Source: Solirubrobacteraceae bacterium (GTDB lineage Bacteria > Actinomycetota > Thermoleophilia > Solirubrobacterales > Solirubrobacteraceae). From it: a stretch of DNA of 32,228 bases. Numbering within the stretch: the first letter of the stretch is position 1; each line of letters begins with the position of its first letter. Of the stretch, positions 3,091-31,024 are shown piece by piece. The stretch lies in the NCBI GenBank assembly GCA_030447505.1, contig JAUJOT010000008.1, forward strand, positions 182,772 to 214,999. The letters run 5' to 3'. The notes under the pieces are model-generated. The model was not told the DNA's origin and made no database searches. It was given only the letters and a program-made list of their open reading frames with translations. Made by a program: the position numbers and the translations under genes.

Positions 3091-4161
3091 ATGAGCACGC
3101 GCTCCGGAGAGCTCGCCGACGAGCTCAAGCAGGTGATCCGGCTCGCGGCTCGCGATCCCGAAGCGCTCGAGGGCGCGCTGCCGGCGCTGTCTGCGCTGCA
3201 GCGTGTGTCCGCCGCCGGCGTACTCGACGAACCTTCGCGCGTGCACTTCATCCTGCATCGACTGATCCCGGAGTACCTCGACCGGCTGCCGGCCGGGCGC
3301 GACTGCCGCGCGATCCGCGAGCTGCTGACCTGGGAGGACGGGGACGGCGAGCCGCAGTCGCTGACGACGCGCTACCACAAGGCCGCGGCGCATCTCGTCA
3401 ACGCCGCCAGCGACTTCGGCCGCCGTCAGGAGCCGCGGCTGCTGGCAGAGTGCGCGCGGCGCTTCATCGCGCTCGACCACGAGGACCGGCTCGCTGCGGC
3501 GACACCGGGGGGGACAGCGCTCCCGCCCGCCCCGGCCGCTGCGCCGCCCGTGGCCGACGGCGACACGCTCGCCGGGATCGTGCAGGTCCACAGGAACCTT
3601 GACTACCACCTGCTCGTCGACCTGATGGCCGAGGCCGAGGAGATCGTCATCCTCAACACGTGGATACCGGAGTTGAACATCCTCGACGACGCGCTGGTCG
3701 ACGCGCTCGCGCGCGGCACCTACGTCTCGATCCTGATGCTCTATCCCGACTCCCAGATCGCGCAGCTGCGCAGCCAGGCGCTGCAGGGGGCGACGACGCA
3801 GGCGCGCCCGCGCGAGGACCGGGTGCGACCCGGTGTGCGCCACTGCCTCGAGGTGCTCGCCGCGATCGCTCGTACCGTCGACGACGACGGTCGCCGCCAC
3901 CTCCGCGTCAGGCTCTACCATTCGCTGCCGTCGATCTCCGTCTACGGCGTCGACGACCGCGCGTTCTTCAGCGTCTTCCTGCACGGTCAGCTCGCCGTCA
4001 AGTCTCCGCAGATCGAAGTCGAGGGGCAGGACTCGCTGATGGGCCGGCTCGTGTTCCGCGAGCTTGAGACGCTGTGGGAGACCGGGCAGGAATTCGAGGA
4101 CTTGGAGCAATGGGAGACGGAGCTGGAGGAGATGGGTCGGAGGTTCGGCGCCGCGTCGTGA
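3091..4161 (+). CDS. Two-domain protein with PLD-like/DUF5919-like C-terminus
   Basis: A 356-aa soluble protein. Residues ~1-130 are helical, including CRAIRELLTWEDG and LTTRYHKAAAHLVNAASDF; similar small helical domains head many actinobacterial signalling or conflict proteins. A Pro/Ala linker (~135-160) follows. Residues ~170-340 resemble the phospholipase-D-like fold: EEIVILNTWIPELNILDDAL, then GTYVSILMLYPDSQIAQLRS, HLRVRLYHSLPSISVYGVDD, and a closing SLMGRLVFRELETLWE helix. No HxKxxxxD catalytic motif is seen, as in DUF5919-type domains, so a binding or sensor role is likelier than a nuclease or lipase. The start follows a leaderless promoter, and the stop overlaps the next gene's GTG (GTGA). 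Confidence 0.55.
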   Translation: MSTRSGELADELKQVIRLAARDPEALEGALPALSALQRVSAAGVLDEPSRVHFILHRLIPEYLDRLPAGRDCRAIRELLTWEDGDGEPQSLTTRYHKAAAHLVNAASDFGRRQEPRLLAECARRFIALDHEDRLAAATPGGTALPPAPAAAPPVADGDTLAGIVQVHRNLDYHLLVDLMAEAEEIVILNTWIPELNILDDALVDALARGTYVSILMLYPDSQIAQLRSQALQGATTQARPREDRVRPGVRHCLEVLAAIARTVDDDGRRHLRVRLYHSLPSISVYGVDDRAFFSVFLHGQLAVKSPQIEVEGQDSLMGRLVFRELETLWETGQEFEDLEQWETELEEMGRRFGAAS

Positions 4162-4859
4162 GCGCAGACGACGCCGAGGGCGCGCTGCTGTCGCAGTTCA
4201 CGGCGCACCGCCTCTTCGTGGGGATCGAGCAGCTCGACGAGTCGGCGTTCATCGAGGTCCTGCTGCAGCGCCGCTTCCTGTCGCTGCTGTTTCCCGTCGT
4301 CTACGACATCGGCATCGACGGGCTCGCGGGCGAGACCGCGACCAGGCTCGTGCGGGAGATCCTGCGCGAGGAGTATCCGGACGCTTCGGGCGCGACGCCC
4401 TCGCACCGCGAGGACCTCGTCAGCGACCTGCTCGCGCTCGGCACGACGCGCGAGCGGATCGCGGGTGCGCGGCCGACCGCCGTCACGAGCGCGGTGATCG
4501 AGGAGACGCTCGCGCTCATCCTCGACGCGGCGGCGGCGCCCGGCGACGTCGCGGTGCTGACGCTCCTGCGCTTCTGGGGCGAGGTGCTCGTATCGGTCGA
4601 GTACGGCGAGTTCTGGCGCCGCATGGCGGGCGCGTTCGCGGGCGCCGGCGTGCCGTCGCGCTTCTACCACCCCCATCACCACCACGACGGCCGCGAGCCG
4701 CTGGCGGCGGCGTCGCATGCGTCGGCGACGCATTCGGGTCGCCTCGGCGCGTGCCTGGCGCAGCTGCTCGAGGGCGACGCTGGCGCTCTCGAGCAGTTCG
4801 GCGGTGTCGAGCGCGCGGTGCTGGCGGTGCGGATGCGCTTCTACGACCAGTTCGTCTGA
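4158..4859 (+). CDS. Heme-oxygenase-like helical protein, possible metal oxidase
   Basis: The GTG start overlaps the previous stop (GTGA), giving a 233-aa all-helical protein. Features include FIEVLLQRRFLSLLFPVVYDIG (~30-50), an EEYPD...SHREDLVSDLLALG stretch (~74-97) and FWGEVLVSVEYGEFW (~140-155). A His-rich segment (YHPHHHHDGREP, then SHASATHSGRLGACLAQLL) and a final helix follow. The pattern of acidic and His residues on helices, and a length near 230 aa, fit the iron-containing redox enzyme / TenA-like heme-oxygenase-like superfamily. The second metal-ligand set is not certain and the assignment is structural by eye. Its tight coupling to the PLD-like gene suggests a shared function. Confidence 0.45.
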   Translation: MSADDAEGALLSQFTAHRLFVGIEQLDESAFIEVLLQRRFLSLLFPVVYDIGIDGLAGETATRLVREILREEYPDASGATPSHREDLVSDLLALGTTRERIAGARPTAVTSAVIEETLALILDAAAAPGDVAVLTLLRFWGEVLVSVEYGEFWRRMAGAFAGAGVPSRFYHPHHHHDGREPLAAASHASATHSGRLGACLAQLLEGDAGALEQFGGVERAVLAVRMRFYDQFV

Positions 4860-4889
4860 GCGCCGCGGGTGCTGTCGGATCGGGATGCG

Positions 4890-5378
4890 ATGAGCAGGGG
4901 CGGGGTCAGGGCGGCCGTCGCGGTCTTCCTGGTCGGCCTGCTGTTCGTCTGGCTGATCCGGCCGATCGGCAACCCCTGCCCGGACGTCGACAAGCTCCCG
5001 AGCGGCAGCACGGGCTCGTCGGCGCCGTCGTTCGCGCCGCCGCTGACGCGCAGCTGCACGTACTCCACCCCCGACGGCACGCAGGCGCGCAGGCGCTACG
5101 TGCCGGCGATCGATCTCGTCGCGCTGCTGTTGTTGGCCGGCGTCGTCGGCGGCGCGATCGGCCTGGCCGGGCCGGGCGGACGCGAGCCGCGGCCCGAGCG
5201 GGCGGCGCGTCAGCCGCGGGCGACGCGCGCCGAGCCACCCCAGGCGCCAGCCGACGAGCAGCCGCCCGCGCCAGCCGGCGAGCAGCCGCAGCGCGAACGC
5301 GATGCCGCGCGGCGCGAGCGCGAGCGCGCCGAGCGCGAGCGGGCGCGCCAGGAACGGGAGGCCGGGCGGCGGGGCTGA
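4890..5378 (+). CDS. Two-helix membrane protein with charged C-terminal tail
   Basis: A 162-aa protein. Helix 1 (AAVAVFLVGLLFVWLI, ~8-23) is followed by an external loop of about 55 residues with three cysteines (NPCPD and two others near TRSC). Helix 2 is AIDLVALLLLAGVVGGAIGLA. A cytoplasmic Pro/Ala then Arg/Glu-rich tail (RERERAERERARQERE) probably forms a coiled coil. ATG 4890 gives the cleaner N-terminus; GTG 4869 would add seven polar residues. It begins about 30 nt after the heme-oxygenase-like gene and probably shares its transcript. I do not recognise the family. Confidence 0.6.
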   Translation: MSRGGVRAAVAVFLVGLLFVWLIRPIGNPCPDVDKLPSGSTGSSAPSFAPPLTRSCTYSTPDGTQARRRYVPAIDLVALLLLAGVVGGAIGLAGPGGREPRPERAARQPRATRAEPPQAPADEQPPAPAGEQPQRERDAARRERERAERERARQEREAGRRG

Positions 5379-5390
5379 ATCAGCGCGCGG

Positions 5391-5762
5391 TCAGCGCGCC
5401 CAGGGCACTTCGACGGAGTCCTCGTCGGGCGCGTCGCGGGCGACGACGTACTCCGCGGCCTGCGTCTCGGAGGGGTTCTCGAGCAGGTGCGTCTCACGCG
5501 GCGGAACGTAGACCATGTCGCCCGGCTCGAGCGCGAGCGCGTGTTCGAGCTCCTCGCCCCAGCGCACGTTCAGCTGCCCCGACAGCATGTAGACGGCCGA
5601 CTCGCAGTCGGCGTGGTAGTGCGGCCGCGACTGGGCGCCGGCCGGCACGCGGAACAGGCCCATGTAGATGTTCGCCGCGCCGGTCGTCGCCTGCGAGACC
5701 TCGGCGCCGCCGACGACGCCGCGCGGCACGAGATGGTCAGGACCGGGCTTGACGATCTGCAC
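5391..5762 (-). CDS. Single-domain cupin protein
   Basis: A 123-aa protein with one cupin beta-barrel. Motif 1 appears as HYHADCESAVYMLSGQLNV (two His and Glu as metal ligands) and motif 2 as LEPGDMVYVPPRETHLLEN with the last His. Such proteins bind a divalent metal and act as small dioxygenases, isomerases or sensors; the substrate cannot be told from sequence. The GTG at 5762 is preceded by TAGTCT with 7 nt between, so it is probably transcribed alone and leaderless. It converges on the 3091-5378 operon, with 12 nt between the stops. Confidence 0.85.
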   Translation of the reverse strand: MQIVKPGPDHLVPRGVVGGAEVSQATTGAANIYMGLFRVPAGAQSRPHYHADCESAVYMLSGQLNVRWGEELEHALALEPGDMVYVPPRETHLLENPSETQAAEYVVARDAPDEDSVEVPWAR

Positions 5763-5769
5763 GCCGCAA

Positions 5770-5775
5770 AGACTA
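5770..5775 (-). promoter_or_regulatory. -10 box of the cupin gene
   Basis: TAGTCT on the minus strand ends 7 nt before the GTG start at 5762. It is one of several TANNNT boxes at this distance in the window and implies a leaderless transcript. No convincing -35 was found. Confidence 0.4.
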
Positions 5776-5864
5776 CTCGCGGACCCGATTGTCGGAAAGC
5801 CGCTGAACGCGAACTCGACGTTCTGCGGTGCGCGTGTCCACTTCCCGTCGGTTGCAGGGCAAAG

Positions 5865-6692
5865 CTACGTCGTCATGCCGGTGAACTGACCGCCCGTGAC
5901 GTTCAGCGTCTGACCGTGGACGTAGTTCGACCACGGCGAGCAGAGGAAGAAGACCCCGCCGGCGGCCTCCTGCGGCGTGCCCGGTCGCCCCAGCGGGATG
6001 ACGTAGGACGCCACCCCGCGCAGCTGCTCGGGAATCCCGAGCTGGACCCTCTCGCCACCGATCTCGATCGTGTTGTCCTCGACCTTCGGCGCCGTCAGGC
6101 GCGTCTCGATGAAGCCAAAGGCGACGGCGTTGACGTTGATCTTGAACTGGCCCCACTCCTTGGCCAGCGTCTTCGTCAAGCCGACGACGGCTGCCTTGCC
6201 GGCGGCGTAGTTCGCCTGGCCGGCGTTGCCCATCGTGCCCGAGATCGAGGAGACGTTGACGATCTTGCGAAAGACCTCGAGGCCCTGCTCGCGCTCCTTC
6301 TTGGCCGGCTCGCGCAGGTGCGGCGCGGCGGCGCGGATGACGCGGAAGGGCACCACGGCGTGGATGTCGAGCATCCGCTGGAACGCGTCGTCGGTCATCT
6401 TGTGCAGCGCGCCGTCGATCGTGTAGCCGGCGTTGTTGACGATGATGTCGATCCTGCCCCACGCGTCGATCGCGGTCTTCACGAGCTGGTCGCAGGCGCC
6501 GGCGGCCGTCAGGTCGCCGCCGTAGACGACGGTCTCACCGGCGATCTCCGACGCGGTCTGCTCGGCGACGTCGCCGTCGAGGTCGTTGATGAGGACCTTC
6601 GCGCCGTGCTCGCAGAGCAGCTCTGCCGTCGCGCGGCCGATGCCCCGCGCCGAGCCGGTGACGATCGCGACCTTGTCGTCGAGGACTCCCAT
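5865..6692 (-). CDS. SDR family oxidoreductase (3-oxoacyl-ACP reductase-like)
   Basis: A 275-aa classical short-chain dehydrogenase. TGSARGIG (~11-18) is the nucleotide-binding loop, followed by NNAG. The catalytic set is in IVNVSSISG (Ser) and YAAGKAAVVGLTKTLA (Tyr, Lys). The Asp of INDLDG after strand 2 usually means NAD(H). A longer insert with REPAKKEREQGLEVFRKIVN before the catalytic Ser is typical of a FabG-like subgroup of actinobacteria that acts on hydroxyacyl-CoA-type substrates. ATG 6692 is preceded by AAGGAG with 8 nt spacing. The actual substrate is unknown. Confidence 0.88.
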   Translation of the reverse strand: MGVLDDKVAIVTGSARGIGRATAELLCEHGAKVLINDLDGDVAEQTASEIAGETVVYGGDLTAAGACDQLVKTAIDAWGRIDIIVNNAGYTIDGALHKMTDDAFQRMLDIHAVVPFRVIRAAAPHLREPAKKEREQGLEVFRKIVNVSSISGTMGNAGQANYAAGKAAVVGLTKTLAKEWGQFKINVNAVAFGFIETRLTAPKVEDNTIEIGGERVQLGIPEQLRGVASYVIPLGRPGTPQEAAGGVFFLCSPWSNYVHGQTLNVTGGQFTGMTT

Positions 6693-6725
6693 GCCATGCG
6701 CTCCTTGTCGTCGTTGCGGCCGCGC

Positions 6726-6731
6726 ACCATA
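6726..6731 (-). promoter_or_regulatory. -10 box of the minus-strand SDR gene
   Basis: TATGGT on the minus strand lies 33 nt before ATG 6692, leaving room for a short leader that contains AAGGAG. It sits in the 83-bp divergent region shared with the plus-strand SDR. Confidence 0.35.
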
Positions 6732-6762
6732 GTTGCGGCGCGTCGACGCTGAGACGACCACG

Positions 6763-6768
6763 TAGCCT
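6763..6768 (+). promoter_or_regulatory. -10 box of the plus-strand SDR gene
   Basis: TAGCCT ends 7 nt before the GTG start at 6776. No Shine-Dalgarno sequence is seen, in keeping with a leaderless message. Confidence 0.4.
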
Positions 6769-6775
6769 CCAGCGC

Positions 6776-7564
6776 GTGATCGCCCTCGTCACCGGCGCCT
6801 CGAGCGGGATCGGGGAGGCGACGGCGCGCCGGATCGCGCGCGAGCCGGATGCGCAGCTGATCCTCGTCGCACGCCGCGAGGATCGCCTGCGGGCGCTCGC
6901 CGCGGAGCTCGGGGGCGAGCCGCTGGTGATCGCCGCCGACCTGACGCAGCCCGACGCGCCGGCGCACGTCGCCGCCGCCGTCGAGACCTGGAGCGGGCGA
7001 CTGGACCTGCTCGTCAACAACGCCGGCGCGGCCTGGCGCGGGACGTTCGGCGAGGCCGGCTGGGAGAACGTGCGCCGCCACATGGAGCTGAACTTCGACG
7101 CCCAGGTGCGCCTGACGGAGGCGCTGCTGCCGCTCGTGCGCCGCAGCGCTCCGAGCGCGATCGTCAACGTCGCGAGCAGCGCCGCGCGGGTCAGCCGCGC
7201 GAGCTCGGGCGCCTACTCGGCAAGCAAGTTCGCGCTCGCCGGCTGGACCGACGCGCTGCACCTCGAGGAGCGAGAGCACGGCGTCCACGTCGGCATGGTG
7301 CTGCCGGGCTTCGTCGCGACGGAGGGCTTTCCGCAGCCCCAGCTCGTCGACAAGCGCCTCACGCGCTGGATCGTCTCGACGCCCGAGAAGGTCGCCGAGG
7401 CGATCATGGACGCCGGTCCCGGCCGCCGCGCCGAGCGCTACGTCCCCAAGCCGTACTGGCTCGGGGCGGCGGCGCGGATCGTGCTGCCCCGCGCGACGCG
7501 CAACGTCCTGCGCTCCGGCAGGCTCCCGCTCAGCCCGCCGACGAAGGACGACGCCGGGCGCTGA
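6776..7564 (+). CDS. SDR family NAD(P)-dependent oxidoreductase
   Basis: A 262-aa classical SDR. TGASSGIG begins at residue 6. ARREDRL after strand 2 (Arg residues) favours NADP(H). NNAG lies near 84-87, and the catalytic Ser/Tyr/Lys are in NVASSAARVSRASSGAYSAS followed by KFAL. VLPGFVATEG forms the substrate loop. The C-terminal ~40 residues (RYVPKPYWLGAAARIVLPRA) are basic and hydrophobic, as in SDRs acting on lipids or retinol-like compounds. The GTG start is fixed by the promoter box and by the motif beginning at residue 6. It is divergent from the other SDR and shares a terminator-like stem with the next gene. Confidence 0.88.
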   Translation: MIALVTGASSGIGEATARRIAREPDAQLILVARREDRLRALAAELGGEPLVIAADLTQPDAPAHVAAAVETWSGRLDLLVNNAGAAWRGTFGEAGWENVRRHMELNFDAQVRLTEALLPLVRRSAPSAIVNVASSAARVSRASSGAYSASKFALAGWTDALHLEEREHGVHVGMVLPGFVATEGFPQPQLVDKRLTRWIVSTPEKVAEAIMDAGPGRRAERYVPKPYWLGAAARIVLPRATRNVLRSGRLPLSPPTKDDAGR

Positions 7565-7609
7565 GCAGCGCTTCGAGGTCACCTCCCGCGACGTGCGTCA
7601 GCGCTGCTC
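7563..7609. terminator. Bidirectional terminator-like stem between convergent genes
   Basis: A perfect 10-bp inverted repeat (GAGCAGCGCT at 7563-7572, AGCGCTGCTC at 7600-7609) with a 27-nt loop contains the stop codons of both converging genes. There is no T tract, so it would act as a Rho-dependent or high-GC hairpin terminator in both directions, if at all. Confidence 0.45.
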
Positions 7610-8662
7610 GCGTTGGCCGGAGACCGCCATGATCGCTCGTGCGACGCTCGCCGCCAGCGCGTTCGGGCGCCGATCGTCGATCGTCACGCGAGACCGTCTC
7701 CCGCGCCGCAGGGGCAGGCTCGATCCGGCGCCGGCGCCGGCGCCGGCGCCGCGCCGCGTCGCGATGCGCAACGTGCGGGCCGTGCTGCGCGGCGCGGCCG
7801 TCCCGAGCGCCACGAGCAGGCGCCGCCCCTTCCGGCCCACCAACGCCGAGCGGATCGCGGCCCTGGTGCTGCGGCGCTGACGCTGGAGGCGAACATCCGC
7901 GAGATCCCCAGCGCGCAGTGGGCGGCTCGCGCGGGCGCTTTGGGCGTCGATCACCGACACGCGCGTGCCGGGCGCGTGGTTGACGGCCAGCCAGCTGCCC
8001 AGCGCGCGCAGCTCCCGGCGCAGCGACGTCGCGTCGTAGGTCCGATCGACGACGAGTGCGACCCGCACCCGCGGCACCTTCGCCGGAGCGGGCAGCAGGT
8101 CGGGCATCCCGACGCCCGGCAGCGACGGGGCGCCGGCGGCGCCGGCCGGTGCCGCCGGCGCCGGCTGGTCGCGGGCGCCGCGCGTGGCGCCGTCCTCGTC
8201 TGAGGGGCTCAGCAGGGCCAGCAGCGCGAGCGGCAGCAACAGCGCCAGCAGCCCAAGCAGGACGCGGCGTGGAAACGGCAGCCGCAGGCGACGCAGCGCC
8301 TGCACCAAGCGCCGGACCGCGTCGCGGGTCGCGGCGGACAGGCCGCGTACGCCGGCCGCCAGGTTGGCGAGCGACGCGGCGAGCGCGCGGGTCAGCGTCG
8401 GATCGCGCAGCAGCGCGTCGAGCTGCTGGAGCAGTAGCTGCCAGTTCGACAGCTCGTCGGCCGCGCGGGGTTCGGCCTCGGCCGTGACGTCCGGCTTCTG
8501 TGCGGGCGCTGTCGCGACGGCCGTTGGCGCGTCGTGCGCCGCGTGCGCGGGGCGCGTCGTGCGGCCCCCGGCTCTGGACGCGTCCACTCTGCTGCGGGCC
8601 GCGCCGGGCGCCCGCGGGCCCGAGCCCCTACGCGGACCCGAGGCCTGCCGCGGCGCGCTCAC
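7598..8662 (-). CDS. One-TM protein with vWA-like extracytoplasmic domain
   Basis: The GTG at 8662 overlaps the previous gene's stop (GTGA), giving 354 aa. Residues 1-75 are Pro/Ala/Arg-rich. A helical part follows (ELSNWQLLLQQLDALL...), with one strong membrane helix (VLLGLLALLLPLALLALL, ~165-182) and an Ala/Pro linker. A domain beginning VRVALVVDRTYDATSLRREL resembles a von Willebrand A fold (hydrophobic strand then Asp, later RVSVIDA and GRRLLVALGTAAP), but without a full metal site. The end is basic. A (CCGGCG)n repeat encodes GAGAGAGAG near the C-terminus. Third gene of an operon with a lipoprotein and a four-TM protein. The family is not recognised. Confidence 0.6.
   Translation of the reverse strand: MSAPRQASGPRRGSGPRAPGAARSRVDASRAGGRTTRPAHAAHDAPTAVATAPAQKPDVTAEAEPRAADELSNWQLLLQQLDALLRDPTLTRALAASLANLAAGVRGLSAATRDAVRRLVQALRRLRLPFPRRVLLGLLALLLPLALLALLSPSDEDGATRGARDQPAPAAPAGAAGAPSLPGVGMPDLLPAPAKVPRVRVALVVDRTYDATSLRRELRALGSWLAVNHAPGTRVSVIDAQSARASRPLRAGDLADVRLQRQRRSTRAAIRSALVGRKGRRLLVALGTAAPRSTARTLRIATRRGAGAGAGAGSSLPLRRGRRSRVTIDDRRPNALAASVARAIMAVSGQREQR
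7725..7750. repeat. (CCGGCG)n hexanucleotide repeat
   Basis: Four full copies of CCGGCG plus a partial one lie inside the gene at 7598-8662, encoding alternating Gly-Ala. Changes in copy number would keep the frame, so only linker length would vary. Confidence 0.85.
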
Positions 8663-10035
8663 TCCGGCAGGCTCTTCGGTGCCGCGAGGTTGCGGCCCAG
8701 CAGCTCTGCGATCAGCGCATCGACGTCGGCGAGCTTGTCGGGGACGGTCAGCCCCCCGCCGCGCGCGAGGTCGGCCTGCGCGTGATGCGCCTCGCCGACC
8801 TCCGGCATCCCATCCGAGGACGCCCGCGCGCGCGGACTCCACGTGCCGTAGAGGTGGGGGAACTCGTCCGCGCGGCGCAGGAACGCGACGTCCGGATGCA
8901 GCACCGCCTCCTGGTGCATCTGGCGCTTCGCGTTGGCCACGGTCGTGGCGATCTCCGCGCGCTGGGCGACGAGTGCTCCGACCTCCGCTGCGAGCTCTGA
9001 GCGGATCCGCTCGCGATGCTCGAGCGTGTCGGCGTCGCGGCGGCGCTGGCGTTCGCGCGCCTCGCGCGCCGGGTCGACGAGCAGGAAGGCAACGCCGATG
9101 CCGAGCAGGAACACCGAGGCCGACACGAGGAAGTACACGCCCGGCTCGCTGGCCGAAGGCTGGACGTTCTCGGTCAGGCGCTGGGCGGCGGCACCCCGTG
9201 CGCCCGCGGCCTGATTGGCCTGCTGGCGGGCTGCGGCGGCGTTGTTCGCAGTCGTGCGTGCGCTCTGCACGCCGTACCACAGGCCAAGGCCCGTGATGAT
9301 GACCGCGAGCGCGACGGCGTAGCGAGCGGCCCGCGGCACGTCGCGGTCCAGCAGCGGTCGGCGGCCGTCGACGTGCGGCTGTGGATCGCTCGTGTGCGCG
9401 AGGCGCAGGTTCTTGCCGACCGCCTTCTGGCCGACGGCGATCAGCAGGGCGATCACGATCGCCGACAGCGCGGGGGCGCCCTCCCGCAGCAGCACCGGAT
9501 CGCTCTCCCGAAAGCGCGCGAGCTCGCGGAAGCCGTCGTAGGCGAACAGCGCCTCGGCGATGCCGACGGCGAAGAACAGCGCCAGCAACCCGCCGCCGGC
9601 GGACATCCGGGCGGACAGACGCCCGCGCCTCGTCGCCGGCGGCGCGACCGGCGGCGCCTCGCCGGGCGGCGTCGAGACCTGCTCGGCGGCGGCGCTGGCG
9701 CGAATCAGGTCGTCGTCGAGCATGCGGACGCGGACGGCCCGCTCCATCAGCGGGCCGAGCCGCGCGCCGATCGCGTGGTCGGCGTGCTGAGCGATGCTCT
9801 CCGAGACGATCTTCCCGCGCACGCGGTCGGCGTCGTCGCGGGGATGGCCGGCGTCGGTGCGCCGCCCATCGGCCACGTCAGGGGCGGGTAGGGTCCCATC
9901 GGCGATCGGGCGCTCGGCGTCGGCCGGCGCCTCGGTCGGCTCTCCGACGGCGGGGATCGACAGCAGCGGAGGCGGCAGCGGGGGGAGGCCGCCGTTCGTC
10001 GTGTCGCCTGTGTTCATGCGGTGCTCCTCGCTCAT
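8659..10035 (-). CDS. Four-TM membrane protein with coiled coil
   Basis: A 458-aa protein. Residues 1-130 are Pro/Asp-rich and cytoplasmic. Membrane helices are near GGLLALFFAVGIAEALFAY, APALSAIVIALLIAVG, YAVALAVIITGLGLWYGV and GVYFLVSASVFLLGIGVAFL. Between helices 3 and 4 lies an external Ala/Gln/Asn-rich helix (AAARQQANQAAG). After helix 4 a long charged segment (REARERQRRRDADTLEHRER...) probably forms a coiled coil. ATG 10035 has GAGG 5 nt upstream; ATG 10017 has GAGGAG 6 nt upstream and is an equal alternative. It lies 8 nt after the lipoprotein gene and overlaps the next gene by 4 nt. Probably the membrane core of the complex; family unknown. Confidence 0.65.
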   Translation of the reverse strand: MSEEHRMNTGDTTNGGLPPLPPPLLSIPAVGEPTEAPADAERPIADGTLPAPDVADGRRTDAGHPRDDADRVRGKIVSESIAQHADHAIGARLGPLMERAVRVRMLDDDLIRASAAAEQVSTPPGEAPPVAPPATRRGRLSARMSAGGGLLALFFAVGIAEALFAYDGFRELARFRESDPVLLREGAPALSAIVIALLIAVGQKAVGKNLRLAHTSDPQPHVDGRRPLLDRDVPRAARYAVALAVIITGLGLWYGVQSARTTANNAAAARQQANQAAGARGAAAQRLTENVQPSASEPGVYFLVSASVFLLGIGVAFLLVDPAREARERQRRRDADTLEHRERIRSELAAEVGALVAQRAEIATTVANAKRQMHQEAVLHPDVAFLRRADEFPHLYGTWSPRARASSDGMPEVGEAHHAQADLARGGGLTVPDKLADVDALIAELLGRNLAAPKSLPE

Positions 10036-10042
10036 CGCCGCC

Positions 10043-10852
10043 TCATAGCTCGGTCGTCGTCGCGCAGTTCGTCGCGCCCGTCCGCTCGCAGGCCGTCATC
10101 CAGATCTGCACGAGATCGTCTGTGCGCCGCGCGCTCTGGTTGACGCGGTCGGGCAGCCGCCCGAGGCCGACGGCCTGCAGCACGTCGACGCCGTCGGCGC
10201 TGCCGAGCAGATCGCCCAGTTGCGCCGCGAGGGTCTCGGGAGCGTCGCCGGCCTCCAGGCGTCGGGCAAGCATCAGCTGATCGCTCGCCTGCACGCCGTC
10301 GGAGACCAGCGTCATCGCCTGGGCGCCGGATCGCTGCTTCAGCATCCGCAGTGCATTGCGCACCGCCCGGGCGATGTCGGACGAGCCTCCGCGCGCCAGC
10401 GCGCGTACGCGGGCGGTCAGCGCCTCGTCGTCCTGGTCGACGCCGAGCGCGCTGTCCAGCGTTTCCGCGAGCGCGCCGCGCAGGTCCTGCTCCAGTGCGC
10501 CTCGACGGGTCTCGCCGAGCTGCTCGAGCGTCGGCACGTCGTCGTCGTAGATGACCTCCACCGAGTTCGCGTCGCCGGCGAAGACGACCATCCGCAGGTG
10601 CCCCCCGGCGGTGATCGTGTGCTCGGCCGCTCGCAGCGCCGCCGAGCTCACGTCCTGCGCCAGCGCGCGGTCGTGAATCGCGCCGGTCGCATCGACCGCG
10701 ATCACCGAGCTCACGGGGCAGTCGCCGGGCGCCTGCACGCTTCCGGGCGTAGCACCGGCTGTCACAGCGCAGGGGGAGTCGCTGCCGCCACAGGCGGCGA
10801 GCGCGAGCGCGACGACGCCGAGCACGGCGAATCTGATCCGGCGGATTGTCAT
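10043..10852 (-). CDS. Lipoprotein with vWA-like domain
   Basis: A 269-aa protein with a lipoprotein signal: MTIRRIRFAVLGVVALALAA followed at once by the lipobox Cys (ALAAC, residue ~21) and GGSDS. The mature part begins VIAVDATGAIHDRAL, like strand 1 of a von Willebrand A domain, but with DATGA instead of the DxSxS metal motif. HLRMVVFAGDANSVEVIYDDD and AQAMTLVSDG (the usual late vWA strand ending in DG) follow. Two Cys near the end (ACERTGATNCATTTEL) may form a disulfide. It heads the three-gene minus operon. The protein is probably anchored on the outer face of the membrane and may present a ligand-binding domain to the two membrane partners. Confidence 0.65.
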   Translation of the reverse strand: MTIRRIRFAVLGVVALALAACGGSDSPCAVTAGATPGSVQAPGDCPVSSVIAVDATGAIHDRALAQDVSSAALRAAEHTITAGGHLRMVVFAGDANSVEVIYDDDVPTLEQLGETRRGALEQDLRGALAETLDSALGVDQDDEALTARVRALARGGSSDIARAVRNALRMLKQRSGAQAMTLVSDGVQASDQLMLARRLEAGDAPETLAAQLGDLLGSADGVDVLQAVGLGRLPDRVNQSARRTDDLVQIWMTACERTGATNCATTTEL

Positions 10853-10898
10853 GCGCGCGGGCAGCCCCTGGGGTCGGTCGAAGCGAATGCGAATGGTA

Positions 10899-10904
10899 GA
10901 TATA
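10899..10904 (-). promoter_or_regulatory. Possible -10 box of the lipoprotein operon
   Basis: TATATC on the minus strand lies in the only AT-rich stretch of this 152-bp divergent gap, about 47 nt before ATG 10852. No clear -35 is seen. Confidence 0.3.
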
Positions 10905-10992
10905 CGAGCACGCGCAGGTCACGGTTCGCGGCGCACGGCATGACCCAGCCGCGTCAGGCGCAAACCCTTTCCACCGGCGAGCGCGAGCGCAA

Positions 10993-10998
10993 TAGATT
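10993..10998 (+). promoter_or_regulatory. -10 box of the crotonase gene
   Basis: TAGATT ends 6 nt before the GTG start at 11005, implying a leaderless transcript. Confidence 0.4.
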
Positions 10999-11004
10999 GC
11001 GCGC

Positions 11005-11787
11005 GTGCCGTACGAGACGCTGGGCTACGAGGTCGCCGGGGCGATCGCCACGATCGCGCTCGACCAGCCCGAGACGCGCAACGCCCTCTCGGACGCGCTG
11101 CTCGACGAGCTGCTCGCGGCGCTCGAGATCGCCCGCGACGACGAGGCCGTGCGCTGCGTCGTGCTCAGCTCGACGCACGAGACGGTGTTCTCCGGCGGCG
11201 GCGACCTCGCGGGCTTCGCCGCCGACGTGCCGCTCGTGCACCGCCACGCGGCCAACGATCGCTTTCCGCGCCTGTTCACGCTGATCGGCGAGCTCGGCAA
11301 GCCCGTGCTCTGCGCGGCGCGCGGACACGTCCTCGCCGGCGCGCTCGGCCTGGCGCTCGCCTGCGACCTCGTGATCGCCGGGGAGCGCGCGACGTTCGGG
11401 ACGCCTGAGATCAACGTCGGCCTGTTTCCGTTCATGATCGCCGCGCTGGTCGCGCGCAACATCGGGCGCAAGAAGACGACCGAGCTGCTGCTGCTCGGCG
11501 AGCGCATCGACGCGCACGAGGCGCAGCGGCTGGGAATCGTCAACCGCGTCGTCGCGCCCGCCGAGTTCGACGCGGCGGTCGCCGACTGGGCGGCGCAGCT
11601 CGCGGCCAAGTCGCCGCTGCTGATGAAGCTCGGCAGGGACGCGCTCTTCGCGCAGCAGGACATGGCCTTCGCCGGCGCCCTGGAGTACCTGCGCGCGCAG
11701 CTCGCGCTCGCGCTGTCGACCGACGACGCCCGCGAGGGGATGGCGGCATTCCTCGAGCGCCGCGAGCCACGGTGGACCGGCAGGTAA
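11005..11787 (+). CDS. Enoyl-CoA hydratase/isomerase family protein
   Basis: A 260-aa crotonase-fold protein. It shows ETRNALSDALLDELLAALE near the N-terminus, the oxyanion-hole loop FSGGGDLAGFA (~65-75), GKPVLCAARGHVLAGALGLALACD (~95-120) and FGTPEINVGLFPF. The Glu of TPEI (E164 of rat crotonase) is kept, while the first catalytic Glu (E144, usually GGGxE) is Gly in GALGL. The enzyme may therefore be an isomerase, a lyase or a hydratase with altered chemistry. The C-terminal helices are typical. The stop overlaps the next gene by 16 nt, so it is co-translated with the arginase-family gene. Confidence 0.85.
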   Translation: MPYETLGYEVAGAIATIALDQPETRNALSDALLDELLAALEIARDDEAVRCVVLSSTHETVFSGGGDLAGFAADVPLVHRHAANDRFPRLFTLIGELGKPVLCAARGHVLAGALGLALACDLVIAGERATFGTPEINVGLFPFMIAALVARNIGRKKTTELLLLGERIDAHEAQRLGIVNRVVAPAEFDAAVADWAAQLAAKSPLLMKLGRDALFAQQDMAFAGALEYLRAQLALALSTDDAREGMAAFLERREPRWTGR

Positions 11788-12515
11788 CCGCGCTTCTGTG
11801 CCGCACCTCCGATCGCGGGCCGCAGGCCGCGCAGGGCACGCGCGAGCTGGCGGAGCTGATCGACGCGCGCGTCGTCGGCTCGCCCGGCGCGCCGCGCTCG
11901 TCCTCATGGGATGACGACCTGCGCGATTCGCGCGGCTGCCTGCTCGAGGCCGGCGGGCAGGTCGACGACGCGCTCGACGCCGGCCGGGCGCCGATCCTGC
12001 TCGCCGGCGAGTGCTCGATCAGCGTCGCGACGCTGCCCGTCGTCGTGCGCCACCACCCCGACGCCCGCGTGCTGTGGCTCGACGCGCACGCCGACTTCAA
12101 CACGCCCGCGACGACCGCCAGCGGCTACCTCGGCGGCATGTGCCTGGCGGGCGCCTGCGGGCTGTGGGACAGCGGCTTCGGCGCGGGCCTCGACCCGGCG
12201 CGCGTGATCATGCACGGCGTGCGCGAGCTCGACGCCGGCGAGCGCGTGGCGCTGGATCGCTGCGGCGTCTATCGGCTCGAACAGCCGGTCCAGCTCGAGG
12301 GCATGACGCTCTTCGTGCATGTCGACCTCGACGTTCTCGACCCCGACGTGCTTCCGGCGAGCTTCCCGGTGCCGGGCGGGATGTCCGCGCAGGCGCTGCG
12401 CGACCTCCTCGCCGCGGTCGTCGAGCTGGCGACGGTCGTCGGGGCGCAGATCACGTCGCCGGCGCCCGGCCATGGCGACGTCGCGGCCGCCGCGATCGCG
12501 CCGCTGCTGACCTGA
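11772..12515 (+). CDS. Arginase-family (ureohydrolase) protein, variant metal site
   Basis: A 247-aa protein with the ureohydrolase fold. WLDAHADFNTP (Asp, His, Asp metal ligands) and VHVDLDVLDPDVLPA (two Asp ligands) are intact. The first ligand motif, normally GGDHS, reads LAGECSIS, so Cys replaces the Mn-A His. The loop after DAHADFNTP keeps GGMCLAGACG where arginases have an HGMP-type loop. Substrates of the family are arginine, agmatine, formiminoglutamate or other guanidino/amidino compounds; none can be chosen here. The GTG start lies inside the end of the crotonase gene, so the pair may act in one catabolic route. Confidence 0.82.
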   Translation: MDRQVTALLCRTSDRGPQAAQGTRELAELIDARVVGSPGAPRSSSWDDDLRDSRGCLLEAGGQVDDALDAGRAPILLAGECSISVATLPVVVRHHPDARVLWLDAHADFNTPATTASGYLGGMCLAGACGLWDSGFGAGLDPARVIMHGVRELDAGERVALDRCGVYRLEQPVQLEGMTLFVHVDLDVLDPDVLPASFPVPGGMSAQALRDLLAAVVELATVVGAQITSPAPGHGDVAAAAIAPLLT

Positions 12516-12607
12516 CGAGTCGGCGCGCGCTGCCCGCCCGCCGGCGCTCGGGCGCGATCGGGGTCGCACGACGTGTATCTGAGCGGCCTGTTCGCGCTCT
12601 GTCTCAC

Positions 12608-13750
12608 ATGCACGCTTTCGCCCCCCGCAGATCGACCGAGACGCAGATCAGCGGCGCGATCACGCTCGGCTGGCGGATCGCAGTGCTCTACAGCCTGCGC
12701 GCCGACGAGCTGCCGACCTCGCCGCCCGACAACCTCCTGCCGATGCGTGGCAGCCTGCCCGCCGCCGAGCGGCTCGCGCTCGAGCTGCGCGCCGCGGCGG
12801 GCGATGCCGATCGACTCGGCGTGCCGCTCGAGTCCGGCGCGCTGGACGATCTGCTCGAGCTCGCGGCGCGCGCTGCGCAGTCCGATCAGGCCGAGACGCA
12901 GTTCCGCGATCGCATCCGCGCATGGCACGTCGAGCTCGAGACGATGCTGTGGGCCGACCACGAGGCGACCGGCAAGGCCTACGAGCTGGGCAGCTTCCTG
13001 TCGGACACGTCCAACCGCGTCGTGCTCGAGCTGCGCCGCGGCGAGCACGCGCGCACGCACGTCACGCGCGAGCTGCGCTGCGTCTTCGCGCGCGAGCGCG
13101 TCGAGCGCATCAAGCGCCTGCTCGACGATCTGCAGGCGCGGATCGATCCGGCGGCGGTGCGGATCGTCAAGCAGCACCTCGCGGCGTGGCAGCACGCGGT
13201 GCGCGATCGCACGCCGCGCGCCGCCACGCGCTCGGGCCTCGAGCCGCTCGACAGCCAGGTCGTCACGTGGTTTCAGCTGCTGACCGGCGACAAGGAGCCC
13301 GAGGCCTTCATCGGCCACGACGACCGCGCGCGCGTGCGCGGGACGATGCTCGGTCGGATCGCGCGGTCCTACCGCCGCAACTGGCTGGCGATCGCCTCGG
13401 CCGCGGCGGTCGCCGCCGGGGCGGTCGCGGCCCTCCTCCTGCTCAACCCCGATGGGACGGCGACGCTGAAGGTCCTCGCGGTCCTCAGCCCCTTCGCGGG
13501 CGCGCTCGGCGTGTCGCTCACATCGATCGGACTGACCGTTCGCAAGAGCCTCGACGCGCGCGCCGAGCTGCTGTGGAACACGGCCCTCGTGGAGGTCATC
13601 GCCGAGCGGACGCTGCGCGTCGAGGACCTGCTGAAGTCGCCCGTGCGGCCGCGGCGGCGCCTCGCGGCGCCGGTCTCCCGCCGCCGCTCGCACAGCGACA
13701 CGCCCGCCGCGGCGCAGCGCCGGAGCGGCGCCCCCGCAGACGCTCGCTGA
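12608..13750 (+). CDS. Membrane protein of unknown family with two C-terminal TM helices
   Basis: A 380-aa protein. Residues ~1-245 are soluble and strongly helical, with many Glu/Arg pairs (FRDRIRAWHVELETMLWADH, RVERIKRLLDDLQARI). Two membrane helices follow close together (NWLAIASAAAVAAGAVAALLLL, ~258-279, and VLAVLSPFAGALGVSLTSIGLTV, ~285-310), then a helix (DARAELLWNTALVEVIAERTL) and a basic tail (RPRRRLAAPVSRRRS). No catalytic motif is seen. ATG 12608 is the first ATG, and codons before it read like non-coding sequence. Topology suggests a cytoplasmic helical head with a hairpin membrane anchor. It is monocistronic, with a 92-nt gap upstream. Confidence 0.65.
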   Translation: MHAFAPRRSTETQISGAITLGWRIAVLYSLRADELPTSPPDNLLPMRGSLPAAERLALELRAAAGDADRLGVPLESGALDDLLELAARAAQSDQAETQFRDRIRAWHVELETMLWADHEATGKAYELGSFLSDTSNRVVLELRRGEHARTHVTRELRCVFARERVERIKRLLDDLQARIDPAAVRIVKQHLAAWQHAVRDRTPRAATRSGLEPLDSQVVTWFQLLTGDKEPEAFIGHDDRARVRGTMLGRIARSYRRNWLAIASAAAVAAGAVAALLLLNPDGTATLKVLAVLSPFAGALGVSLTSIGLTVRKSLDARAELLWNTALVEVIAERTLRVEDLLKSPVRPRRRLAAPVSRRRSHSDTPAAAQRRSGAPADAR

Positions 13751-13835
13751 CGCTGCGGCGGCCCGACCGCGGCGCGCGGCTCGGCGAGGGACAGCGCCGC
13801 GCTGATCGTCGGCAGCTCGCGCAGCCTGGCGTGCG

Positions 13836-21669: not shown

Positions 21670-21708
21670 TTGCGAACAGACAACGAGCCTGCGGCGATGC
21701 GCCCGTGA
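21670..21708 (+). CDS. Possible 12-aa leader peptide
   Basis: GGAGG at 21660-21664 is followed 5 nt later by a TTG that opens a 12-codon frame (RTDNEPAAMRP after the start). Its TGA overlaps the GTG of the PPTase gene. It could couple ribosome loading to the PPTase, which has no good Shine-Dalgarno sequence of its own. Short enough to be chance. Confidence 0.22.
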   Translation: MRTDNEPAAMRP

Positions 21709-22327
21709 TCGAGCAGCTGGTGCCCGCGACCGTCGCGGCGGTCGCGACGCGCGCCGACCTCAGCAGCGAGCTGTTCGCGCAGGAGGCGCGCTCGCTGGGC
21801 TCGGCGGTGGACACGCGACGCCGTGAGTTCACGACCGGCCGCGCCTGTGCGCGGCACGCCCTCGCGCGCCTCGGGCTGCCGGCTGTCGCGGTCGGCAGCG
21901 GCCTGCACGGCGAGCCGCTGTGGCCGGCGGGCGTCGTCGGCAGCATCACGCATTGCGCGCGCTACCGCGCCTGCGCGGTCGCGCGCGCGCAGGACGTGCG
22001 GGCGATCGGGATCGACGCCGAGGTCGACGCGCCGCTGCCCGCGGGAGTCCTGGCGACCGTCGCGAGCTTCGACGAGCGGCGGGCGCTGGCGCAGCACGGC
22101 GCCGGCGCGTGCTGGGACCGCGTGCTCTTCAGCGCCAAGGAGGCCGTCTACAAGGCGTGGTTCGCGCTGACCGCGCGCGGCCTCGAGTTCGAGGACGTCG
22201 ACGTGCGGATCGATCCGGCCGGCGGGACGTTCGCGGCGCGGCTGCATGTCGACGGCCCTGTGCGCGCGCTGGACGGTCGCTGGGCCGTCTGTGACGGGAT
22301 CGTCGCGACGAGCGTCGTGGTGGGGCG

Positions 22328-22331
<4 letters not shown>
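21705..22331 (+). CDS. 4'-phosphopantetheinyl transferase (EntD/Sfp type)
   Basis: A 208-aa enzyme that moves the phosphopantetheine arm of CoA onto a carrier-protein Ser. Signatures are RRREFTTGRACARHAL (CoA binding), PLWPAGVVGSITHC (~70-84), IGIDAEVD (Mg2+-binding Asp and Glu, ~103-110) and FSAKEAVYKAWF (~140-151). The length and the WPxGxxGSxTHC form fit the EntD-like subgroup. The GTG start is the only suitable one in frame. Its stop overlaps the PKS start (ATGA), so it almost surely activates the two ACPs of that PKS. Confidence 0.93.

Positions 22332-31024
<8,693 letters not shown>

Follow-up and report, generated by a model that had tools for sequence, protein, structure and literature searches.

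A conserved three-gene envelope operon of Solirubrobacteraceae with relatives in a mobile-element gene module

The described systems closest to the locus analysed here are the integrative mobilisable elements and several groups of proteins with a von Willebrand factor A (vWA) domain. The locus itself is an operon of three genes (A, B and C) encoding a lipoprotein, a protein with four transmembrane (TM) segments and a protein with one, located on a 32,228-nucleotide (nt) stretch of Solirubrobacteraceae bacterium assembly GCA_030447505.1 (contig JAUJOT010000008.1, positions 182,772 to 214,999), the whole of which is called the window below. In a published account of integrative mobilisable elements (PMC5357655), PF13814 appears as the family of MobC relaxases. 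Elements carrying a PF13814 relaxase, a VirD4/TraG-type coupling protein and a large serine recombinase resemble the operon in having A- and B-like genes in their common core (loci L074/L076 and L085, see below), whereas the window operon and its four congeneric copies have no recognised transfer or integration genes beside them and are vertically inherited within the genus. Proteins of the Pfam VWA and VWA_2 families are alike in the modelled fold of C, in the order of the A motifs that resemble the metal ion-dependent adhesion site (MIDAS) and in the homology of A to relatives with a complete MIDAS, but neither A nor C reaches the family cut-off or has the full DxSxS motif. The vWA pilus adhesins and integrin I domains (SpaC, RrgA, integrin beta I) are found among the VIA-align structural matches of C, differing in that no pilus or sortase gene was recognised near the operon, the metal site has been lost and Z-scores lie at 6–8. 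The operon is a variation on vWA envelope proteins and mobile-element modules, vertically inherited yet differently located.

It is proposed, tentatively and with somewhat less than an even chance, that the operon encodes a domesticated envelope complex, related to the element module, whose metal-free vWA domains would meet outside the membrane. The three proteins would form a single membrane complex. In it, A would be held by its lipid anchor on the outside of the cytoplasmic membrane and carry a vWA-like domain without the canonical metal site; B would be a scaffold of four TMs with long tails in the cytoplasm, to which it links the outer domains; and C would span the membrane once, with its tail in the cytoplasm and a second vWA-like domain, likewise without metal, outside. 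There the two domains would most likely bind one another or a partner that they have in common. The operon may derive from the envelope genes of the elements, or share a common ancestor with them, and would now be kept by the host; in the genus A and B persist without DNA-transfer genes and hence look domesticated, and a portion of a DNA-transfer module may thus have turned into an ordinary cell-envelope complex. The likeliest remaining role, given the kinship with element genes, would be an activity of the contact or exclusion type on the cell surface. If this is true, envelope genes of an element, once parted from the DNA-handling genes and deprived of the vWA metal site, can give rise to a host complex that is stable, and a small vWA/four-TM/one-TM set beside coupling proteins becomes a candidate for a new DNA-transfer part in Actinomycetota.

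Relatives of A and B in mobile elements

An initial A profile detected a protein of genome G162, a profile of the mature part of A combined with that protein then reached G119 and, weakly, a second G162 locus, and a broader A profile confirmed the second G162 locus and added G078. Four good loci were obtained in this way from three genomes, which belong to another family of the class that includes Solirubrobacteraceae, Thermoleophilia. The match of A to the element A proteins was strong (hhalign probability 97.8, E 1.1e-12, a single-comparison E-value). At all four loci an A-like protein is followed by a four-TM-type protein in a module with D, a membrane protein of 56–60 amino acids (aa), and a coupling protein or its N-terminal part adjoins the module at three of them. 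Three of the four element B proteins share the arrangement seen in B (tail, two TMs, charged loop, two TMs, tail), the G119 protein having three TMs at the hydropathy threshold.

On G162 contig 49 (L076, L074) and in G078 (L085), a large serine recombinase, a small helix-turn-helix-like gene (our own assignment), a DNA methylase and a Replic_Relax protein come first, followed by a TrwB/TraG-type coupling protein, a small open reading frame (ORF), D, B and A, with extra genes interspersed, particularly where D is followed by B in L074; for the methylase, the domain was identified by a scan in L085, and the L074 gene is assigned through its 51% identity. Identity between L074/L076 and L085 was 58% for the recombinase, 51% for the methylase, 39% for the relaxase, 49% for the coupling protein and 44% each for B and A, such that A and B are as diverged as the coupling protein and relaxase and behave as core genes of the module. 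Judged by their gene content, these two of the four loci, with relaxase and large serine recombinase beside the module, are integrative mobilisable elements. At the other two, in G119 (L073) and on G162 contig 54 (L029), B and D are separated by a vWA gene with a full metal site, which thus follows B as C does in the window; L073 ends in an apparent coupling-protein start (probability 74, E 2.8e-5), while L029, a 3.5-kb contig, ends soon after D. No type IV secretion system ATPase was found among the element genes scanned, a scan that covered part of the genes.

The initial annotation had stated that no known secretion or division system matches the operon. This proved half right, as searches of Pfam, PADLOC, PHROGs and NCBIfam gave nothing significant for A, B or C, yet A, and more weakly B, are distant kin to genes beside a VirD4-type coupling protein and, at two loci, also a MobC-type relaxase and a large serine recombinase. 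A bolder version of the proposal, which we consider unlikely, would make A-B-(C)-D the envelope part of an undescribed minimal Thermoleophilia transfer or exclusion apparatus acting with a MobC-type relaxase and a VirD4-type coupling protein, with the window operon as a domesticated, metal-independent descendant that forms a surface complex.

Beyond A, type I restriction genes are found, among others, in L074 (8720–16000) and protein kinase, phosphorylase-like and HATPase-like genes in L085 (11338–18909), which is possible defence cargo.

Were the operon a small self-contained system for defence or exclusion, stopping incoming conjugative elements or phages at the envelope, this would account for a compact operon of varying location and patchy presence (five of seven congeners, one of the negative genomes being 77% complete), and would be in keeping with the restriction genes or kinase-containing cargo of the related elements and with the match of the L085 coupling protein to PADLOC mad8 (80.9 bits), a match that may reflect only the ATPase family of the coupling protein. 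We regard such a system as improbable, since operon divergence follows vertical descent, the surroundings of the five operons showed no recognisable defence island and none of the three window proteins matches PADLOC models of anti-phage systems convincingly (best NsnC, E 0.003, 14.9 bits). In addition window B was unmatched in the phage, plasmid and viral collections. The same collections gave no relatives of element A, nor did viral contigs yield relatives of window A or plasmids relatives of element B, window A and C being outside the plasmid and phage query sets. No paper on these genes was recognised among those listed in a literature search.

Conservation and location in the genus

The main survey comprised 61 genomes, namely the window's own and 60 relatives. 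A matched in seven of these, with five full-length matches, all within the genus, B matched in the identical five, and C was recovered by tblastn in all four relatives fetched, three of which are named Solirubrobacteraceae and one Actinomycetota in the genome collection. Among 346 genomes sampled from the phylum a strong A match was confined to the window's genome, with two weak matches besides. The order A-B-C is constant across the five genomes (G000, G001, G002, G003, G006), that is, in five of seven congeners with the window's own included, while A and B were not found in G004 (77% complete) or G005 (98% complete). The three linked envelope genes of the initial annotation are present as ORFs and exceed what chance would give, their frames and order being kept in four congeners, and they are conserved together as a unit. 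Identity in the four congeners was 77–85% for B, and C is the fastest-evolving gene of the operon (53–69%).

The location of the operon varies. None of the called flanking genes of the four relatives' operons matches any called window gene; G001 and G002 have common flanking genes on both sides and G000, G003 and G006 share none, such that five genomes represent four operon locations. When window DNA 4000–13760 was compared with the seven genomes, the window flanks, a short-chain dehydrogenase/reductase (SDR) gene and an enoyl-CoA hydratase gene, were found to adjoin in G005, G006 and G002 with 42, 92 and 3 nt, respectively, between the aligned pieces. Gene order confirms this in G006 and G002 (the G002 SDR gene being cut by the contig end), and in G005, where the gene caller chose antisense frames, the adjacency rests on the DNA alignment. 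In G001 and G003 the SDR and enoyl-CoA hydratase genes are separated by other genes, and G004 is uninformative because its two aligned pieces are on different contigs. Conversely, the site of the G003 operon is empty in the window's own genome, with 36 nt between the aligned pieces and ABC-ATPase-like and NUDIX-like genes (our assignment) adjoining there. The comparison covered two of the four locations, both of which are reciprocally empty.

Across ten genome pairs A and B have diverged in step with two reference genes (r = 0.93), and the nonsynonymous rate (dN) is below the synonymous rate (dS) for A, B and C in three genome pairs (NG86), with dN/dS values of 0.106/0.417 for A, 0.093/0.394 for B and 0.246/0.443 for C between G000 and G003. 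The operon thus looks old in the genus and under selection, and it has moved as a block to different places. Recent horizontal spread in the genus is disfavoured by the agreement with the reference genes and by the shared location in the close pair G001 and G002. Repeats of at least 11 nt between the operon ends were absent in four of the five genomes, with one 13-nt direct match in G002, and this near-absence gives no sign of a transposon.

Vertical descent in the genus, purifying selection, the single location in the sister genomes G001 and G002 and the lack of recognised mobile genes beside the operon would be expected of a host envelope operon with a housekeeping or adhesive function, from which the elements took A and B and whose locations reflect ordinary rearrangement. 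The element link would then be uninformative on function here. This alternative is credible but somewhat unlikely, as it has to accommodate a restriction to one genus among the 61 genomes together with the finding that outside the genus all four good relatives, in three genomes, sit in the module with D, three of them adjoined by a coupling protein or its N-terminal part.

Domains and topology of the three proteins

A has one signal/TM segment by hydropathy and is a predicted lipoprotein, with a signal peptide and the lipobox LAAC, the Cys of which is invariant across the five congeners. The motifs on which two degenerate vWA-like domains had originally been proposed were both found, IAVDATGAI in A and VALVVDRTYDA in C past its TM, neither of which keeps the full DxSxS. 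In the five genomes the A remnant of the metal site reads DATGA or DATGP, then GG[ST]SD (GGSSD in the window copy), then SDG, and as part of the site is thus retained it is mainly the second Ser of DxSxS that has been lost; a complete MIDAS (DxSxS, T, D) was absent from A in all five. Three of the four distant A relatives carry complete DxSxS (DLSAS, DVSIS, DGSES) plus GTD and TDG, and the fourth, in G078, has DGTGS and no middle GTD motif. A W-x3-C-x7-C motif near the C-terminus is common to the genus and all four distant relatives. In Pfam A fell under the cut-off (VWA_2, E 0.005, 17.9 bits against 27 needed), and sequence searches of the PDB with A profiles gave no credible match. The degenerate vWA domain of A is supported by homology to relatives with complete MIDAS, and not by a usable predicted fold.

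C has its TM at residues 134–152 (hydropathy), preceded by basic PFPRR and followed by acidic SPSDED, and by these flank charges the N-terminus is placed inside and the vWA-like domain outside, a topology that is not decisive because the C-terminal domain is basic overall. Since both domains are predicted outside the membrane, the face-to-face pairing of A and C first suggested in the initial annotation is plausible. The DxTYD motif of C is present in four of five genomes, G003 having one extra residue, the third motif is without Asp and the MIDAS is incomplete. No match of C to Pfam VWA or VWA_2 was found at E ≤ 1. An AlphaFold2 model of residues 182–354 (predicted local distance difference test, pLDDT, 74.9; predicted TM-score, pTM, 0.75) was compared with known structures using VIA-align, giving a best Z of 8.2 with SpaC and integrin beta at the top. 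In the best 50 rows, 22 titles name integrin, I domain or VWF/vWA domain. Most of the other rows (TFIIH p44/Ssl1 complexes, SpaC, RrgA, collagen VI, inter-alpha-inhibitor, MIC2) are what we take to be vWA proteins, and on the uniformity of this list the modelled ectodomain of C probably has a vWA-like fold.

The TMs of B were placed at residues 146–164, 189–207, 240–258 and 302–320 by hydropathy. B has charged tails of ~140 aa at both the N- and C-terminus, both of which are predicted to be cytoplasmic on a charge argument like that used for C.

A number of observations weigh against a domesticated complex with two vWA domains. AlphaFold gave no usable model of A (pLDDT 36.6; 248 residues, five sequences), such that the fold of A rests on motifs and homology, and the profile match between B and the element B proteins was weak (probability 58, E 1e-4, a single-comparison E-value). 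Profile comparison did not match C to the element C proteins, in which the MIDAS is complete, and the one element vWA gene tested for a TM, that of G119, has none. Of the 384 Foldseek matches to the C model none reached E ≤ 1e-3, with TolB in the top rows and the first vWA protein (CLCA1) at rank 22; the VIA-align Z of 6–8 is middling, and according to the tool a Z below 8 can reflect a common arrangement. The degenerate vWA domain of C is thus favoured by the model and the VIA-align list and not by Foldseek. Finally, the called neighbours of the five operons, judged mostly by eye, include no gene recognised as a relaxase, coupling protein or recombinase, nor the combination of relaxase, coupling protein and integrase in one locus.

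The middling Z, the lack of significant Foldseek matches, the rapid evolution of C and its lack of a profile match would suit a reading in which only A is a true vWA relative, C being a lineage-specific anchor in an ordinary envelope set with no defined complex. This is very unlikely given the overlap of B and C, the constant gene order in the five genomes, the conserved core motifs in C and the dominance of vWA folds in its VIA-align list.

Operon layout, discarded matches and neighbouring genes

The coordinates of the operon and its surroundings are given in Table 1. Of the spacing reported in the initial annotation the 4-nt overlap of B and C was correct (8659–8662, GTGA), and the 8-nt gap between A and B is in fact 7 nt (10036–10042). 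The conserved 9-mer ATCTACCAT has a single occurrence in the window, where shuffled sequences lead one to expect 0, and possibly belongs to a promoter of the operon's own.

Table 1. Features of the operon region in the window.
Feature	Positions	Strand	Details
Gene A	10852-10043	minus	ORF, ATG start, 269 aa, lipobox LAAC
Gene B	10035-8659	minus	ORF, ATG start, 458 aa, four TMs
Gene C	8662-7598	minus	ORF, GTG start overlapping B stop, 354 aa, one TM
ATCTACCAT, conserved 9-mer	10893-10901	minus	upstream of A in five of five genomes
Operon block missing at matching site in other genomes	7565-11004		flanks adjoin in G002, G005, G006
SDR gene	6776-7564		one flank of operon block
Enoyl-CoA hydratase gene	11005-11787		other flank of operon block

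Several matches to A were discarded. Those in G010 and G018 were N-terminal and spanned 83–92 residues, A-profile matches in G010, G027, G155 and G262 were N-terminal and of low score, and a central one in G217 had surroundings without an A-like gene. Low-scoring matches were likewise dropped for the mature-part profile (G031, G034, G217, G219), the broader profile (G137, G273, G677) and the phylum sample (G393, G468), and from one further A search all but the window's own match, most of them of signal-peptide length. An A-profile match in G158 reached E 5.5e-7, its locus (L086) showing no clear A-like gene.

Elsewhere in the window, 1066–1914 on the minus strand is a gene for an MbnB/TglH/ChrH-type enzyme modifying ribosomally synthesised and post-translationally modified peptides (RiPPs; Pfam E 1.8e-77), and of its neighbours (603–1079 and 1911–2831) one is without a Pfam match and one is membrane-protein-like; the group at 603–2831 is a possible RiPP locus. 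A membrane-protein-like gene of 380 aa without a Pfam match (12608–13750, plus strand) lies downstream of an arginase-family gene. In G003, a sequence of ~170 nt (L014, ~5867–6036) is listed at more than 30 places, with one partial match in the window's genome, and is a possible lineage-specific repeat. The plus strand of the window also carries a type I polyketide synthase gene (21705–31024, 2898 aa), directly upstream of which is a 4′-phosphopantetheinyl transferase gene overlapping it by 4 nt.

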